A DNA stretch of 64,000 nt from Planctomycetaceae bacterium (GTDB lineage: Bacteria; Planctomycetota; Planctomycetia; Planctomycetales; Planctomycetaceae): contig JAKFWC010000012.1 of NCBI GenBank assembly GCA_021732975.1, positions 62,001 through 126,000 on the forward strand. The letters are read 5' to 3'. Of the stretch, positions 3,836 through 63,761 are shown one piece after another (position 1 is the first letter of the stretch; the number at the start of each line of letters is the position of its first letter). The notes under the pieces were generated by a model. The model was not told where the DNA came from, ran no database searches, and was given only the letters and a program-made list of their open reading frames with translations. Position numbers and translations under genes: made by a program.

Positions 3836-3899
3836 AACGAGCCCGAAGCGCAAGCGCCGGGTTCTTGAATTCACCCGGCGCTCACACTTCGGGCTCGTT
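3836..3899. repeat. Long palindrome between convergent genes
   Basis: Two 27-bp arms (AACGAGCCCGAAGCGCAAGC... and its near-complement) flank a 10-nt centre. It occupies almost the whole gap between the lipoprotein gene and the leftward signal peptidase gene. That position would suit a bidirectional terminator, though no T-tract is present. Confidence 0.85.
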
Positions 3900-13011: not shown

Positions 13012-13102
13012 AACCAGCCCGTAGCGCGAGCAAGGGCAGAATTGTTCCCGTGATCGCGTTTCCCGTGAAGATGGACTCCCTTGCTCGCGCTGCGGGTTGG
13101 TT
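13012..13102. repeat. Long palindrome between protease gene and metH
   Basis: Arms of about 27 bp (AACCAGCCCGTAGCGCGAGC... and its near-complement) sit around a roughly 37-bp centre, starting 5 bp after the protease stop. Sequence type is unlike the other elements in the window. Confidence 0.85.
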
Positions 13103-13239: not shown

Positions 13240-16200
13240 ATGGTTGATACGTCCCGCCCCGGCTTGTTTGAGCAGCTTCTGAACGACCGCATCCTCGTCA
13301 TCGACGGGGCGATGGGGTCGATGATCCATCGTTTCGAACCGACCGAGGCCGATTATCGCGGGGAGCGTTTCAAGTCGCATCCCATCGACCTGAAGAACGC
13401 CAGCGATGTGCTGGTCCTCACCCAGCCGCAGATGATCGCGTCGATTCATCGGCAGTATCTGGAAGCCGGTGCGGACATCATTGAGACCGACTCGTTCAAC
13501 GCGAACATCGTGTCGATGGAAGAATTCGGCCTCGCTGATTTGACATACGAGTTGAACCAGACCGCAGCGGAGTTGGCCCGTTCAGTCGCCGAGGAATTCA
13601 CAAAGAATAATCCGGCCAAACCGCGGTTCGTTGCGGGCAGCATCGGCCCGACGAAGGTGCAACTCTCATTCAATGCAGACAAGCCCGGTTACCGCCCGGT
13701 GACATTCGAGCAGATGGTTGCCTCCTATGCCGTGCAAATTCGCGGCCTGCTCGATGGTGGCGTCGATGTGCTGTTGCCGGAGACTTCGTTCGACACGCTC
13801 AACATGAAGGCGTGTCTGTACGCCATCCAACAGGTGTTTGAACAAGGCGGCCGCAAAGTCCCGGTGATGGTCTCCGGAACCATCTTCACCGGCGGAGTGA
13901 CGTTGACCGGTCAAACACTCGAAGCGTTCTGGGCGGCGGTGTCGCATGCGCCGATGACTTCGGTCGGTTTGAATTGTGCGCTCGGTCCGAAGCAGATGCG
14001 GCCGTATGTGGAAGCGTTGTCGCAGACCGCGAATCGCTACATCAGTTGCTATCCGAATGCCGGGATGCCCGATGGCATGGGCGGGTTCGATTCCACGCCG
14101 CCCGAGTTCGCCGGCATCATCCGCGAATTCGCTGAAAACGGCTGGGTCAACATCGTCGGCGGCTGCTGCGGCACCACGCCCGACTTCATCCGCGCCGTGT
14201 CACAAGCCGTGGAAGGTGTCACACCGCGTCGCATTCCGGATACGCCGCATTGGTCGACGTACAGCGGATCGCAAGCGCTGGTGATTCGGGCTGAGAGCTT
14301 AGAGCTAAGGGCTAAGGGACAGACTGAAGAAGTCCCCGCGTCCGATTCTCTGTCCCTTAGCCCTCAGCCCTCAGCCCTCAGCCCCAAACCCTTCCTCGTC
14401 ATCGGGGAACGGACCAACGTCACCGGCTCGAAGAAATTCGCTCGGCTCATTCGCGACAAACAGTACGAAGAAGCGTTGCAAGTCGCGCGACAGCAGGTCG
14501 AGAGCGGCGCGAATATGATCGATGTGAACATGGACGAAGGCCTGCTCGACAGCGAGCGGGAAATGGTCCATTTCCTCAACCTCATCGCCGACGATCCCGA
14601 TATCGCCAAAGTCCCGGTGATGGTCGACAGCTCCAAGTTTTCGGTGATCGAAGCCGGGCTGAAATGCCTCGCTGGGAAAGGCGTGGTGAACTCGATCAGC
14701 CTGAAAGAAGGGGAGGAAAAGTTCCTCGAACAAGCGCGGACAATCCGCAAATACGGTGCGGCGACCGTGGTGATGGCCTTCGATGAAGAAGGCCAGGCGG
14801 CGGATTGTGTCAATAAGGTCCGTATCTGTCAGCGGGCCTACAAACTGCTGACGGAGAAGATCGGTTTCCCGCCGGAAGACATCATTTTCGATGCCAACAT
14901 TCTCACCGTCGGCACAGGGATGGAGGAGCATGCGAACTACGCCGTCGAATACATCGAAGCGGTCCGTGAGATTAAAGCGACCTGTCCGTACGCCAAGACC
15001 TCCGGCGGCGTGAGCAACGTTTCGTTCTCGTTCCGCGGTAACGAAGTTGTCCGCGAGGCGATGAACGCTGCGTTCCTCTACCATGCCATCAATGCCGGGC
15101 TGGATATGGGGATCGTCAACGCCGGGCAACTGGCGGTGTACGACGAGATCGATAAGGAATTGCTGGAGTACGTGGAAGACGTGCTGCTCAACCGTCGCCC
15201 CGATGCGACCGATCGGTTGTTGACGTACTCCGACGAACTCAAGGCCCGCGGTACGCAGAAAACCGGCAACGAACCCACGGTCGAAGCATGGCGGTCGGAC
15301 ACGATCGAAGCCCGGTTGCAGCACGCCCTGTTGAAAGGGATCACCGACTTCATCGACGAAGACACCGAAGAAGCCCGCATCAAATACGGCCGCCCTTTGG
15401 AGGTCATTCAAGGCCCCTTAATGGCTGGCATGAATGTCGTCGGCCGCCTCTTCGGCGAGGGAAAAATGTTCCTCCCCCAAGTGGTGAAGTCCGCTCGCGT
15501 AATGAAGAAAGCGGTCGCGTACTTGCAGCCGTTCATGGAAGCGGAAAAGGAAGAGAAGGCTAAGGGCTTAGAGCTAAGGGCTAAGGGCCAGGCAGAAGAT
15601 GTCATGGCAGCCGCCACTTCTCCGTCCCTTAGCCCTCAGCCCTTAGCCCTCAGCTCTTCCCGCGGCAAGATTCTCATCGCGACCGTCAAAGGCGATGTCC
15701 ACGATATCGGCAAGAACATCGTCGCCGTGGTGCTGCGGTGTAATAACTTCGAGGTGCTCGACCTCGGCGTGATGGTGCCATGCGACAAGATCCTTGAGAC
15801 TGCGAAGAAGGAAGGCGTCGCCATCATTGGGCTGTCGGGGCTGATCACGCCGTCGCTGGATGAAATGGTTTTCGTTGCCAAGGAAATGCAGCGGCAGGGT
15901 TGCACTACGCCGTTGCTCATCGGCGGGGCTACCACCAGTGCGAAGCATACGGCGGTGAAGATCGCGCAGCATTATGCACACCCGGTCGTGCATGTGGTCG
16001 ATGCTTCGCTGTCCGTCCCGGCGGTGGAAAGCCTGCTTGATCCGAGTCGCAAAGAAGAATTCGCCGCGAAGAACCGCGCTTCGCAGGATCGTGACCGCAC
16101 GAACTTCGCCGGGATGCAGGCCAATCGCAAACTCGTGCCTTACACCGAAGCGTTGGCCCGACGGTTTGCGACCGATTGGAAAACGGTCGATATTCCTACC

Positions 16201-26194: not shown

Positions 26195-26271
26195 AGAGCC
26201 GCGACCGTCAGGGAGCGAGTTCTTCCTTTTGATCAGAAGGAAAAAACTCGCTCCCTGACGGTCGCGGCTCT
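26195..26271. repeat. Palindrome family A, copy 1
   Basis: Arms of about 37 bp meet at GATC and are almost perfectly complementary. The outer 27 bp (AGAGCCGCGACCGTCAGGGA...) are perfect. It lies between the ferredoxin and hydroxyacid dehydrogenase genes. The same core occurs at 34929-34997 and 63688-63761. Confidence 0.92.
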
Positions 26272-34928: not shown

Positions 34929-34997
34929 GAGCCGCGACCGTGAGGGAGCGCGTTCCTGAATTGGCGTGAAGCACTCGCTCCCTCACGGTCGCGGCTC
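34929..34997. repeat. Palindrome family A, copy 2
   Basis: Perfect 22-bp arms GAGCCGCGACCGTGAGGGAG... and complement around a 25-nt centre. It sits between convergent sulP and the leftward metallopeptidase-like gene. Confidence 0.9.
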
Positions 34998-39913: not shown

Positions 39914-40038
39914 CTCGTTCCCACTCTCCGCGTGGGAATGCCGGGCCGCGACGCTCTGCGTCGCTTGATGTCGACGATCATCGGAAGACGACGCGGAGCG
40001 TCTCGACCGTGCGTTCCCACGCGGAGCGTGGGAACGAG
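39914..40038. repeat. Palindrome family C, large copy
   Basis: Two 50-bp arms (39914-39963 and 39989-40038) match at about 43 of 50 positions. Each arm itself contains smaller inverted repeats (TTCCCACGCGGAGCGTGGGAA; GACGCTCTGCGTC). The 3' half is shared with the remnant at 18162-18208. It ends just before the zinc-ribbon protein gene. Confidence 0.9.
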
Positions 40039-52185: not shown

Positions 52186-54321
52186 TCACGCGGACAAACT
52201 TGGCGCGGTGCGCGAAACCGCAAGCGGAGTGGGTGCGCGGGTTACCAACACAGTGGCAATGGTGAGCGGGATAAGCGTACCGACTGGTACCCACCACGGA
52301 AGGTGAGCGTGGTTCTCTAACCCTTGCGCCCATGTGCCGAGAAACGGACTGAGCAGCGGTAATGCCAACACCGTGGTGTTGTGAATCGCATGCATTAACA
52401 CGCCGGGCCAGAGGCTGCCGCTACGGTATGCCAGCCATCCAAGCACTAATCCCAGCATCGCCGTCGGGGGAAAGCGTTCCAGCAAGAGCGCATCGCGGAC
52501 GAGGACGTGGAACAGTCCGAAGAGCGCCGCAGTGAGGGTGATTGCCACACCGGGCCGCATCGCTGAGCCGAACGCTTTTAGCAGGAAGCCGCGGAAAAAG
52601 AGTTCTTCGCAGATCGCCGGACACAACGCCAGTGCGAAGAGTTTCACGGCGAACGGCGTGCGGTCAAGTTCTTCCTTGAGCGGTTTGATGAGTTCCACGA
52701 GAGACTCCAACCGGCTCGCAGGAATCAGCCACACTTCCAATTCATACGCCAGCGGCCATAGCGAGAACCCGGCGAGCACCGCAGCTGTCCACATCTGCGG
52801 CGATGGCGGTTTCAATCCGAATGCCGATACCCACGGCACGCGGCCGTACGCCGCCAGCCACAACGGCCAGACGGCGAAGAGTGAGATCAGCACCACAGCA
52901 TTCGCCATCAAACGGGCATTGATCGACCACTCCGCAAACCGCCCGGGCACACTACTGAGAATAATGAACGCGGGAAACAGCACGACGAGCGCGGTCAAGC
53001 CCTGCTCCCAACGCAACCGGGGTTGAACGTCTTCCGGTCGCCGCAGCGCATCGCGCCAACTGCCGCTGCTGCCGTAGAGAACGGCGTCGGTTCCAAAGAT
53101 ACGAACCGCAATCGCCAGGGCGACCGCGGTCCAGACTCCGTTCGCGATCAGTGCGACCGCCATCGCCGCGCCGCTGACGTGGCCATCGAGCAAGTCACGC
53201 GTCACCAGCACCATGTTGGCCAAGGGGACGAGCGCCCAACCCAGCGTGAGCTTCAGTCCGGGCAACAACGCCAGCACACCGGGTGCGATGGACAACATCA
53301 TCAACGGGATCAGGTACGCCTGCGCTTCTTTGAAACTGCGGGCGACGCTGGTCAGCGCCAAGATCACCGCAGAAAAGAACGCTGCAAATGCGGCCAGTAG
53401 ACCGAGCATTTGCAGCAAGCGAGCCGGCGTCAGCCCCCCTGCTCCGAACAAAAGCGACTCGAATCCCGTCGAAAACGCGGTGACCACCATCGCCCCGAGA
53501 TTCACGAACGCCGTCATCAATGCAACAAACACCACCGCCGCATATTTCGCCAGCAACACGCGCGTGCGGGAAATCGGAGCGGCCATTAGCGCTTCGAGCG
53601 TCCCCCGTTCGCGCTCGCCCGCTGTGAGATCAATCGCCGGGTAAACCGCCCCCGTCACCGTCATCAGAATGAGAATCAAGGGGACCAATGTCGCCAGAGA
53701 AAATGAAGGCGCAGCCACACCCGGCACCGTTGTTTCCGACCAGGCGACGGGCAACTTCACCGCAGGTTGCTGCATGGCAAAGTACCGGGAGACGAATTCG
53801 TCATTCACCGCGCGGAACCGCTTCTCGATGTGTTCCCGCACTTCCCGCCCCAACGGCGAACCGCTGCGAACCACGAATTCGACTGACAACGGCAGTTGTC
53901 GGCCTGTGGGAAACCGCACGGCGAGATCGGCCATCTGCGTGCGGACCATCTCCTCGAGTGTCGGCGCATCCTCAACTTCATCGCCCTGAATCAGACGCAA
54001 CTGCGGTTCGGGCGGCTCGCCCGGTTTCACCGGTAACGGGCGGCCCGGATCGATCTCGCGCCCGAGCAATTGATTCCCGCTGGAATACGTTGTCCGGAAG
54101 AGCGCGAGATCCTGCTCACTCTCCAGTGCGATGTGGTACTCCGCCGGTGATTGCTGATCGAGTTGTGCGAACAGAAACTTGGAGAACGCCATCCCCAGCA
54201 GCGGGTAGACGAGGATCGGCATCAGAATCAACGTGGCAATGGTCCGGCGATCCCGCAGTGTCTCGCGTAGTTCTTTGAGTGTCAGCCGTCCCCACGCGGC
54301 GAGGTTCTGGGCTGCACTCAT
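52186..54321 (-). CDS. ABC-2 permease fused to CPBP membrane protease domain
   Basis: A 711-residue membrane protein. The first 400 residues resemble NatB-type ABC-2 permeases ([54 protein letters not shown]). The last 220 residues form a CPBP (Abi-type) membrane protease domain with [23 protein letters not shown] and HAIHNTTV. The start codon overlaps the stop of the ATP-binding gene (ATGA). The final residues ([15 protein letters not shown]) are encoded by a family D repeat half, so the C-terminus may have been extended by it. Confidence 0.88.
52206..52228. repeat. Half-element of palindrome family D inside a gene end
   Basis: GCGCGAAACCGCAAGCG, related to the arms at 60816-60907 in inverse orientation. 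It overlaps the last codons of the ABC-2/CPBP gene on the other strand. Confidence 0.65.
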
Positions 54322-55073
54322 GACGCCCGCCCCAACGCCGGCGCGGCACTACCGAGGAGTTGCAGGAACATATCATGCAAGCCCGAGCATCCGGTGGCGG
54401 CCTGCAGTTCCGCGAACGTGCCCTCTTGTTGTAGACGACCGCGGTTGAGTAGCCCCATGCGATCACAGACGCGCGACGCTTCTTCCAGACGATGCGTGCA
54501 AAGAATGATGGCTTTCCCCATCGTTCGCAGTTGGGCCACGTACTCGAAAATCACATGCGTACCGATAATGTCGAGGCCACGCGTCGGTTCATCGAGCAAC
54601 ATCACCGGCGGGTCGTGCATCAAAGCGCGGGCCAAAGTCACCCGTTGTTTCTGACCGGTGCTGAGGGTTGCACAACGTTGGTCGAGAAACCGGCCGAGGT
54701 CCAGCAATGCTGTTAGCTCCTCGATGCGGCGAATTTTTACGGCCGTTGAGAGATCGTACAGATCCGCGAAGTAATGGAGCGTCTCTCGGGGCGATAACCA
54801 TTGATAAAGCCCGGCACTCGCGGAGACCAGACCGATCGAACGTTTCACGGCATCGGGATTGACGGAAACCTTTTCCCCGCCAACGGTGACATCGCCCGCC
54901 GTCGGCGCCAGGAGCCCCAGAATCATCCGCAGTGTGGTCGTTTTGCCCGCACCGTTCGGCCCCAGCAGACCGTACACTTCGCCTGCGGGAACGGTCAACG
55001 AAAGTCCGTCGACCGCCCGGAGCGTTTGCCCTCCGGTGACGAATTCTTTGGATAAATCGGAAACGACAATCAT
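54318..55073 (-). CDS. NatA-like ABC transporter ATP-binding protein
   Basis: A 251-residue ATPase with Walker [17 protein letters not shown], signature [16 protein letters not shown], Walker [15 protein letters not shown] and the switch His in [10 protein letters not shown]. The C-terminal part is short. It starts at [11 protein letters not shown]; a longer frame upstream runs through the palindromes and is not used. The 4-bp overlap with the permease/CPBP gene indicates translational coupling. Cargo may be sodium, a peptide or a drug. Confidence 0.92.
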
Positions 55074-55461
55074 GCGTGGGTCATTGACGACGGGATGTCT
55101 GAATGGAGCGCAGCCAAGGCACTTTACGCCGTTCGCAGTCGAAAACGCGAACGTAATTTGCCGGAAATTGTTTAACCGCGACCCGATAAGAGGATCACTT
55201 GCGTTGTGCGCGGGTCTCCCGACCCCGCACAGGCGTTTGACCGCAGGTCTCCTCCGAATTGATGCAAAGTGGCCCGTACGCCGGGAGACCTTCGGTCGCG
55301 ACAAGGTGCGGGGTCGGGAGACCCGCGCACAACAACGGTCGCGGTTAAACATTGCGATACATTTGCATTTGGTTGATTGAGCGGAGTTCGTTGATGCACT
55401 AGACTGGTGGATTGTGTTTGTGCCGGTGTCGGGACATCGATCATCTTTGAGGAAGTCTGCT
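55074..55461. other. Divergent gap between ABC and Gfo/Idh genes
   Basis: It is dominated by the nested palindrome at 55170-55350. A promoter for each neighbour is expected outside it, but no clear boxes are seen. GAGGAAG near 55449 serves the Gfo/Idh start. Confidence 0.65.
55170..55350. repeat. Nested palindrome, about 180 bp
   Basis: Outer perfect 14-bp arms (GTTTAACCGCGACC, 55170-55183 and 55337-55350) enclose perfect 28-bp arms (GTTGTGCGCGGGTCTCCCGA..., 55203-55230 and 55306-55333). Inside these a third pair matches loosely (GACCGCAGGTCTCC / GGGAGACCTTCGGTC). It lies between divergent genes. Confidence 0.93.
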
Positions 55462-56835
55462 GTGAGCGACATGTTGAAGGACGGCCTTTCGCGCCGTGAT
55501 TTGTTGAAGACGACGGGGCAAGTCGCTGCGGCGTCGGCACTGGTCGGAAATCTGTCGTCGGGCTTGTATGCCGGGCAGAACAGCACCATTCAAATGGCCC
55601 TCGTCGGTTGCGGCGGGCGCGGCACCGGGGCGATTGCCAATGCGCTGTCCCGCAAGGGCGGACCAACCAAGCTGGTCGCGATGGCCGATGTCTTCAAGGA
55701 CCGCCTCGAAGCCAGCTACTCCGGCACGAAAGGTCCGTTCGACTCTCAGGTCGATGTGCCGGAAGACCGCAAGTTCCTCGGGTTCGATGCGTACAAGCAC
55801 GCAATGGATGCTCTGAAGCCAGGCGATGTTGTCATTCTCACCACCCCCGTAGCGTTCCGTTGGCCGATGTTCGCCTATGCGATCCAGAAGGGCCTGAACG
55901 TCTTCATGGAAAAGCCGACGACGGTCGACGGCCCCAGCACTCGCAAGATGCTGGCCCTCGCCGAAGAAGCGTCGAAGAAGAATCTCAAGGTCGCCGTCGG
56001 TTTGATGTGCCGCCACTGTGACGCCCGGCAGCAACTGCATGACAAAATCAAAGACGGTGCCATCGGCGACATCACGTTGCTACGGGCTTACCGAGCCGCG
56101 GGGACGACTGGCAACGCCGATGTCAAACCGAAGCCGGCCGACAAGAACGAACTCGAATACCAGATTCGCAACTTCCACGGCTTCCTGTGGCTCTCGGGTG
56201 GGGGGTTCAGCGATTTCCTCATCCACAACATTGATGAATCGTGCTGGATGAAGGATGCATGGCCGATTGAAGCCAAGGGCTTTGGTGGTCGGCATTACCG
56301 CGGCGATCTCATCGATCAGAACTTCGACAGCTACACGGTGGAGTACACTTTCGCCGATGGCACGAAGCTGATGCTCGAAGGCCGCACGATGCCCGGTTGT
56401 CATAACGAGTTCGCGAGCTATGCCCACGGCACAAAGGGTTCGGCGGTCATCTCGACCTCCGGCCACAGCCCGGCCCGCCCGCGGATTTACAGCTCGCAGA
56501 ACATCGGCAAGAAGAGCGATCTCGTCTGGGAATACGGTCAGAAGGAACCGAATCCCTACGAACTGGAATGGGATCACTTCCTGGATGCAATCCGTCAGAA
56601 CAAGCCCTACAACGAAGCCACGCGCGGCGCGGAAGCCAGCTTGGTGACCGCGATGGGCCGCATGGCGTGTCACACCGGCCAGGTCATCACCTGGGACGAC
56701 ATGCTCAATTGCGAGCATGAGTTCGCACCCAATGTCGACCAACTCAAGCTCGACGGCCCGTCCCCGCTGCTCGCCGACGCCAACGGCAAGTACCCACTGC
56801 CGCAACCGGGCTTGAAGAAGACCCGCGAGTATTAA
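55462..56835 (+). CDS. Gfo/Idh/MocA-family oxidoreductase, Tat-exported
   Basis: A 457-residue protein with Tat-like leader [22 protein letters not shown] Rossmann domain follows ([20 protein letters not shown], with EKPTT after the conserved loop), then the substrate domain ([22 protein letters not shown]). Export of NAD(P)-dependent enzymes of this family is common in planctomycetes; a sugar or sugar acid is the likely substrate. GTG at 55462 has GAGGAAG at good spacing; an ATG three codons later is the alternative. Confidence 0.9.
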
Positions 56836-63687: not shown

Positions 63688-63761
63688 AGAGCCGCGACCG
63701 TCAGGGATCGCGTTCTTGGACTAAAGATTTCAAAGAATACGCTCCCTGACGGTCGCGACTC
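63688..63761. repeat. Palindrome family A, copy 3
   Basis: Arms AGAGCCGCGACCGTCAGGGA... and near-complement around a centre of about 16 nt, just after the sulfatase stop. Matches the copies at 26195 and 34929. Confidence 0.9.

Follow-up and report, generated by a model that had tools for sequence, protein, structure and literature searches.

Probable insertion of a small palindromic element into an older palindromic repeat in a planctomycete genome

A 131-bp palindromic element, here named REP1, was very probably inserted into an older, outer palindromic repeat after the lineage of the window had split from that of G001, a genome of the same genus, as judged by comparison of the two sequences. 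The window is the whole stretch of 64,000 nucleotides that was analyzed, and it is part of a 3.76-Mb genome of 24 contigs with a completeness of 64.8%, so that 35% is missing. The nested palindromes can be taken as the record of a real insertion because the sister species keeps the older repeat without the insert. An empty site in a sister species allows the entry of one small palindrome into another to be positioned on the tree, and the analysis also describes a two-tier, REP-like repeat family that is widespread in Planctomycetota.

The nested palindromes and the orthologous site in G001

Three inverted pairs were nested at positions 55169-55351, forming a symmetric structure of 183 bp (Table 1). 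The original prediction had named perfect 14-bp outer arms, perfect 28-bp inner arms, and a further inner pair between divergent genes. All of this was recovered except the length of the outer arms, which were perfect over 15 bp; the inner arms were 100% complementary over 28 nt, the further pair comprised 14 nt with one mismatch, and the neighbors were indeed divergent, an ABC ATPase gene on the minus strand and a Gfo/Idh/MocA oxidoreductase gene on the plus strand. The predicted fold of 55165-55355 as RNA had a z score of -11.0 and that of the inner 131 nt as DNA one of -10.1, with 0 of 200 shuffles equally good in either case, so the structure is not due to chance.

Table 1. Positions in the window of the nested palindromes, the neighbor genes, and other palindromic repeats
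Feature	Position	Strand	Remarks
ABC-2 permease fused to CAAX-type (Rce1-like) domain	52186-54321	-	After the ATPase gene
ABC transporter ATPase (PF00005)	54318-55073	-	Left neighbor
Outer arms	55169-55183 / 55337-55351		15 nt, 100% complementary, 153 nt apart
Inner arms	55203-55230 / 55306-55333		28 nt, 100% complementary, 75 nt apart
Innermost pair	55239-55252 / 55284-55297		14 nt, 93% complementary, one mismatch
Left remnant of outer element	55169-55202	+	Perfect 15-mer 55169-55183, diverged inner arm half, first loop bases
REP1 left arm	55203-55230	+	28 nt; lone hairpin, bulged C, TCCC loop, 5' GTT ahead
Variable spacer, REP1	55231-55238	+	6-8 nt across family
Inner conserved motif, left, GACCGnAGGTCTCC	55239-55252	+	
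Variable loop, REP1	55253-55283	None	10-43 nt across family
Inner conserved motif, right, inverted	55284-55297	-	One mismatch, at n position
Variable spacer, REP1	55298-55305	None	
REP1 right arm, inverted	55306-55333	-	28 nt
Right remnant of outer element	55334-55351	-	Right arm, outer half only
Gfo/Idh/MocA oxidoreductase	55462-56835	+	Right neighbor; GTG start assumed
Other palindromic repeats	3836-3899, 13012-13102, 14285-14387, 15559-15654		
Other palindromic repeats (further)	26195-26271, 34929-34997, 39914-40038, 63689-63761		

The locus was compared with that of G001 as a check on the original prediction. The same two genes were found there in the same order, with flanks 81% and 87% identical, and the orthologous site (C11, L121) contained a complete 92-bp outer palindrome with few arm mismatches and without REP1. 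The ancestor shared with G001 would already have had the outer element between the two divergent genes. In the window lineage, the 131-bp REP1 would then have entered the outer loop, at the cost of what remained of this loop and of the right arm's inner half. The opposite history, in which G001 lost REP1 and regained a complete right arm, has a much lower likelihood. The predicted insertion of one element into another was thereby upheld, although it was not a clean one, and the three layers did not turn out to be separate units: two elements are nested, not three, because the 28-bp arms and the inner pair form one element.

The stretch 55184-55202 next to the left outer arm reached a mean score of 2.3 against 81 real arms of the outer family, compared to a mean of -4.1 and a maximum of 0.6 for 300 shuffles. 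It matched the right arm of G001 with a P value of 0.0018, and its likeness to the left arm of G001 alone was weak (P = 0.087). A test for the REP1 loop being the retained loop of the old outer element gave a P value of 0.033, which is too weak.

Eight REP1 sites were compared with G001, of which seven were unoccupied there and one was occupied. Besides the present locus, REP1 was absent from G001 at the counterparts of L028, L007, L018, L040, L008, and L036; the present locus is the only one with a clear empty target because the other six lie in diverged intergenic DNA. Two more REP1 copies (L005 pair) are located in a stretch of about 2.1 kb that is missing from G001, as judged without alignment. 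Opposite the REP1 copy of L028, G001 contained a different hairpin, GCATCCCGGCTGC-gaagaa-GCAGCCGGGATGC (L175, around G001:C7:152970-153018). The 6.7 Mb of G001 contained 3 REP1 arm matches versus 72 in the genome of the window.

REP1 and the outer repeat as separate families

The two inner layers make up a single element. When the genome was searched with the sequence 55160-55360, 91 matches were obtained, nearly all of them confined to the inner 131 bp or to parts of it. Scoring of 40 of the 69 candidates places REP1 at no fewer than about 40 positions in 3.76 Mb. In a screen that tolerated up to 6 substitutions but no indels, both inverted arms were accepted at 33 of the 40 places and one arm alone at the remaining 7, including L040, where the second arm is present with a small deletion. 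The 33 two-armed copies follow a common plan: a 28-nt arm, 6-8 nt, GACCGnAGGTCTCC, a loop of 10-43 nt, and the inverse of these parts. Their identity to the consensus was 97% in the arms and 98% in the inner motif; the end sequence of REP1 is GTTGTGCGCGGG. The arm core, searched as a 21-mer with up to 3 mismatches, accounted for the 72 genome matches mentioned above, compared to 0 for a reversed control.

Between copies, paired arms were on average 94.5% identical and loops 52% (496 pairs of 32 loops). The closest relative of the loop in the window was 72% identical, and L018/L038 was the only one of the 496 pairs with an identity of at least 75%. The loops are far more diverged than predicted for recent copying, although the insertion in the window would postdate the split from G001. 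Either the parent copies are located in the missing 35% of the genome, or the loops change faster than the flanks, or the loops were not copied along with the arms.

Each 28-nt arm is predicted to fold by itself, as GTT followed by GTGCG-c-GGGTC-tccc-GACCC-CGCAC with a single bulged C; the DNA fold had -10.4 kcal/mol, and 0 of 200 shuffles were equally good. Covariation was evaluated in 105 distinct REP1 arms, each of which occurs at one or more loci of other genomes than that of the window. Positions 4 and 28 were paired in 90 of these arms and positions 5 and 27 in 95, compared to maxima of 68 and 74 in 5,000 shuffles. The pairs 6-26 and 7-25 were near-invariant in the same arms, with no excess of pairing. 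Pairing between the arms of an element cannot explain this result because the covarying sites are both within one arm. Most of the covariation is due to two main subtypes, so that few events may be behind it. Among 133 distinct arms, the first three letters were GTT in 73 and GCT in 44, which differ from the 5' tags GTAG and CGTC.

The n positions of the inner pair were equal in 6 of the 33 copies compared to 11.0 expected, a weak deviation (P = 0.039). A GACC-GnA-GGTC minihairpin, which may resemble the stable GNA triloops, had a weak fold, with 15 of 200 shuffles equally good.

REP1 occurs in high copy number in extragenic space, with the intergenic setting judged roughly. According to gene calls by a greedy longest-ORF rule, which wrongly placed the window copy inside a tandem pair, 21 of the 33 copies were associated with tandem genes, either between or within them, and 2 had a divergent setting. 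Some copies in other genomes sit within reading frames. In L239:581-2005 (minus strand), REP1 is apparently inside a reading frame and apparently translated (GARRGSPDPAA...GDLRS...GSGDPRRAP), and L186/L251 seems to be a copy of this kind common to two genomes, as judged by eye. Locus L126 of G035 (980-1335) contains two occurrences of a REP1 half-unit, separated by 335 bp and in similar surroundings, as if duplicated with its flanks.

REP1 cores with up to 3 mismatches were present in 42 of the 99 genomes searched, many of them at control level, and outside the genome of the window their number was highest in G072 (30), G035 (28), G007 (17), and G094 (15). The matches listed carried 80 source titles for at least 115 stretches; by our reading, 71 titles named planctomycetes, 6 "bacterium" alone, 2 Armatimonadota, and 1 Verrucomicrobia.

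The outer pair is a separate repeat family unrelated to REP1, with the arm consensus GTTTAGCCGCGACCCG-nnA-GGGGAGCGC. The 16-mer GTTTAGCCGCGACCCG with up to 1 mismatch matched 47 times in the genome of the window (control 0), 71 times in G001 (control 0), 70 times in G010 (control 2), and 183 times in G014 (control 0), and 11 of the 40 genomes searched had any match. A 13-mer pattern was noisy because 56 matches stood against 20 of the control. The genome was also searched for outer pairs without the inner one, as proposed with the original prediction: among the loci of this genome that were read, 15 of the 16 paired outer copies contained no REP1 between the arms. These 15 spanned 48-100 bp, compared to 179 bp by the same measure for the window copy. 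Conversely, 28 of the 33 REP1 copies had no outer arm within 75 bp, so that the two layers are not always carried together.

The two arm halves of the outer repeat are separated by a hinge, which had 4-6 nt in 82 of the 105 outer arms, from three genomes, among the matches listed. A 13-nt hinge, 8 nt longer and at a fixed place, was found in 20 of these arms, and a hinge of 26-27 nt, which is itself palindromic (21-22-nt palindrome), in 3, all from G010; the search pattern was blind to larger insertions. Four G010 loci (L300, L301, L303, and L326) contain an extra GGCACCGCCGCGGATAGCGGTGGTC-like hairpin at the mid-arm hinge of one or both arms.

An arm of the outer family was located within 75 bp of 5 of the 33 REP1 copies (L001, L004, L013, L020, and L027, with the window copy included) but in 0 of 1,018 control windows 200-1400 bp away, a contrast that is overstated because the control windows are probably coding for the most part. 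The right junction of REP1 in L001 is at the mid-arm hinge, and the same may be the case in L020, where six letters (CGGGTC) remain as a trace. A sixth REP1 copy, L007, adjoins a sister family.

Candidate mechanisms of insertion

REP1 resembles non-autonomous elements of the REPIN/BIME type. Two inverted, REP-like palindromes, each of them a short, bulged hairpin, surround a spacer, which contains the inner inverted pair and the variable loop. The outer repeat likewise resembles such an element. REPINs, as described in PMC3116915, share with REP1 the two inverted REPs, the less conserved spacer, the long hairpin, compensatory changes, and many extragenic copies. REP1 differs from them in the lack of a linked RAYT among the loci covered, in its first letters GTT or GCT, in its conserved inner inverted pair, and in having one copy nested in another family. 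The REP/BIME elements of Escherichia coli and their TnpA-REP (PMC8266576) also have a REP and an inverted REP with a linker, a bulged hairpin, and unpaired 5' letters, whereas REP1 is without GTAG and has a single bulged C instead of their AA-GC mismatch. GTAG- and CGTC-tagged palindromic repeats are known from Planctomycetes as well, according to PMC3733652. They are small palindromes of the same phylum with units often near each other and in opposite orientation, as in REP1, but their tags fit neither REP1 nor the outer family.

Nesting of small repeats has a precedent in the BOX, RUP, and SPRITE repeats of pneumococcus (PMC3049150). BOX and RUP differ from the present elements in that they duplicate their targets and that candidate parent transposons exist for them, neither of which was seen here. 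Palindromic repeats also serve as landing sites in REP-targeting insertion sequences (PMC1525189), but the incoming DNA in that case is a transposase-bearing insertion sequence and not another small palindrome. Nesting of small repeats is thus known already, while no published description of REP1 or the outer family was found in the literature searched, which covered few subscription papers.

Since no RAYT transposase was found, we infer the mover of REP1 from its anatomy and from the TnpA-REP biochemistry in PMC8266576. REP1 would have spread as single-stranded hairpin DNA, with a Y1 (HUH) enzyme of the TnpA/RAYT type acting in trans; by analogy, such a mover is plausible, at slightly less than an even chance. 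The genome of the window contained five Y1 matches, two of them above the Pfam cutoff. The Y1 gene of L032 (1225-1885), above the cutoff, was bracketed by AACGAGCCCGAAGCGCGAGCGCCGGG-type palindromes. A Y1-like gene in L034 (1350-1998), which scored 18.6 bits and thus fell below the cutoff, was bracketed by CGTTCCCACGCTCCGCGTGGGAACG palindromes; its frame as cut gave no Pfam match, and its letters NHLH and YIHQNP agree with one of the TnpA subclasses tabulated in PMC6006769. Both loci are perhaps REPtrons of other repeat families, with palindromes similar to ones in the window.

No Y1 gene bracketed by REP1 or by an outer arm was found among the 35 Y1 loci read out of 69, comprising 5 of 5 from the genome of the window and 30 of 64 from eight relatives. 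In the flanks of these 35 loci, REP1 occurred only in L034, about 1.1 kb off and with a gene in between. No accepted Y1 gene was within 2 kb of REP1 among the at least 115 REP1 loci listed, five of which contained matches to Y1 queries. Those in L239, L217, and L242 came from the query L138, a 472-amino-acid frame from a crude rule and probably no transposase, and the L239 match, 0.6 kb from REP1, is on a reading frame read as a MoxR-type ATPase. The matches in L224 and L206 were about 4.6 and 5.8 kb away from REP1. A linked RAYT for REP1 was consequently absent from these 35 Y1 places and at least 115 REP1 loci, with 35% of the genome missing.

By inspection, no target duplication was visible in the flanks of the 33 REP1 copies or at the empty site. 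A pyrimidine directly preceded 30 of these copies and a purine directly followed 31, a bias that may reflect a preferred target or an additional base pair that tolerates wobble.

Insertion by template switching without a transposase is a possible but rather unlikely alternative to a Y1 enzyme. A replication fork stalled on the outer palindrome would have replaced the loop and the inner right arm by REP1 DNA copied from another site. This agrees with the loss of these parts from the outer target, with the absence of a target duplication, with the junction of L001 and perhaps L020 at the hinge, and with the longer, in part palindromic hinges in 23 of the 105 outer arms among the matches listed. 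The correlated arm changes and the seemingly flipped core described below also fit template switching as reported in PMC8604942. In that paper, however, the process acts between the arms of one locus and inverts spacers of 2-5 bp, and copying of 131 bp from a distant locus would be an extra step.

It is improbable that a DDE transposase mobilized REP1 through its terminal inverted repeats, as in a classical MITE. The perfect 28-bp terminal inverted repeats, the small size, and the many copies are those of a MITE, but no target-site duplication was visible in the copies or at the empty site, and the arms of REP1 are hairpins in their own right, with covariation within the arm. Even less probable is a regulatory structure of the divergent genes, such as an attenuator, a terminator, or a protein site. 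The layers do lie within the shared upstream region and have a strong predicted fold, but G001 has no REP1 at its orthologous site, nor at six of the seven other sites compared, and most copies are in the tandem setting by the rough gene calls that misjudge the present copy. A described structured RNA family was rejected as well, since an Rfam search of 54900-55600 gave a single match outside the element, with an E value of 0.7 and far under the gathering score. A single composite element, with all layers always traveling together as the symmetry of the whole 183-bp structure might indicate, is refuted by the separate copies of each family and by the outer palindrome standing alone in G001.

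Arm homogenization, core flipping, and layering

Private variants common to both arms of one element were observed in 5 cases compared to 1.4 expected (P = 0.0056). A single REP1 copy was common to both genomes, L013 in the genome of the window and L122 in G001, with flanks 82% and 77% identical. When the flanks of this pair were aligned, the element scored 84 in inverted and 66 in native orientation, and the loops alone gave P values of 0.0016 inverted and 0.09 native. Among 528 pairs of copies in the genome of the window, 8 differed by at least 18 between the orientations and 9 reached a score of 84. Of the 33 REP1 copies, the one that the G001 copy matched best was its positional ortholog, in inverted orientation. 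The core of this pair thus seems to have been flipped, although in this one case REP1 may instead have inserted twice independently, in opposite orientations. No flip was found in two pairs from other genomes, L186/L251 (100 native versus 15.5 reversed) and L201/L258 (71 native versus 50.5), with only one flank of the latter aligning well.

The correlated arm changes together with the apparently flipped core suggest template switching. During replication, template switching between the arms would keep them alike and may flip the core. In yeast, template switching between inverted repeats homogenizes the arms and inverts spacers of 2-5 bp, as given in PMC8604942.

The site in the window, the five contact copies, the lengthened hinges, and the inverted core of L013/L122 suggest, tentatively, that palindromes of planctomycetes might grow by layering. 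Hairpin repeats would preferentially enter the loops or mid-arm hinges of other hairpin repeats and replace part of them, and template switching would then homogenize the arms and flip the cores, so that tiers would be built module by module. If layering into loops and hinges is general, it would be a route to study the assembly and the near-perfect upkeep of long bacterial palindromes. The window is also rich in other palindromic repeats, for instance, GAGCCGCGACCGTnAGGGAGCG in three copies and CGTTCCCACGCTCCGCGTGGGAACG-like ones (Table 1).
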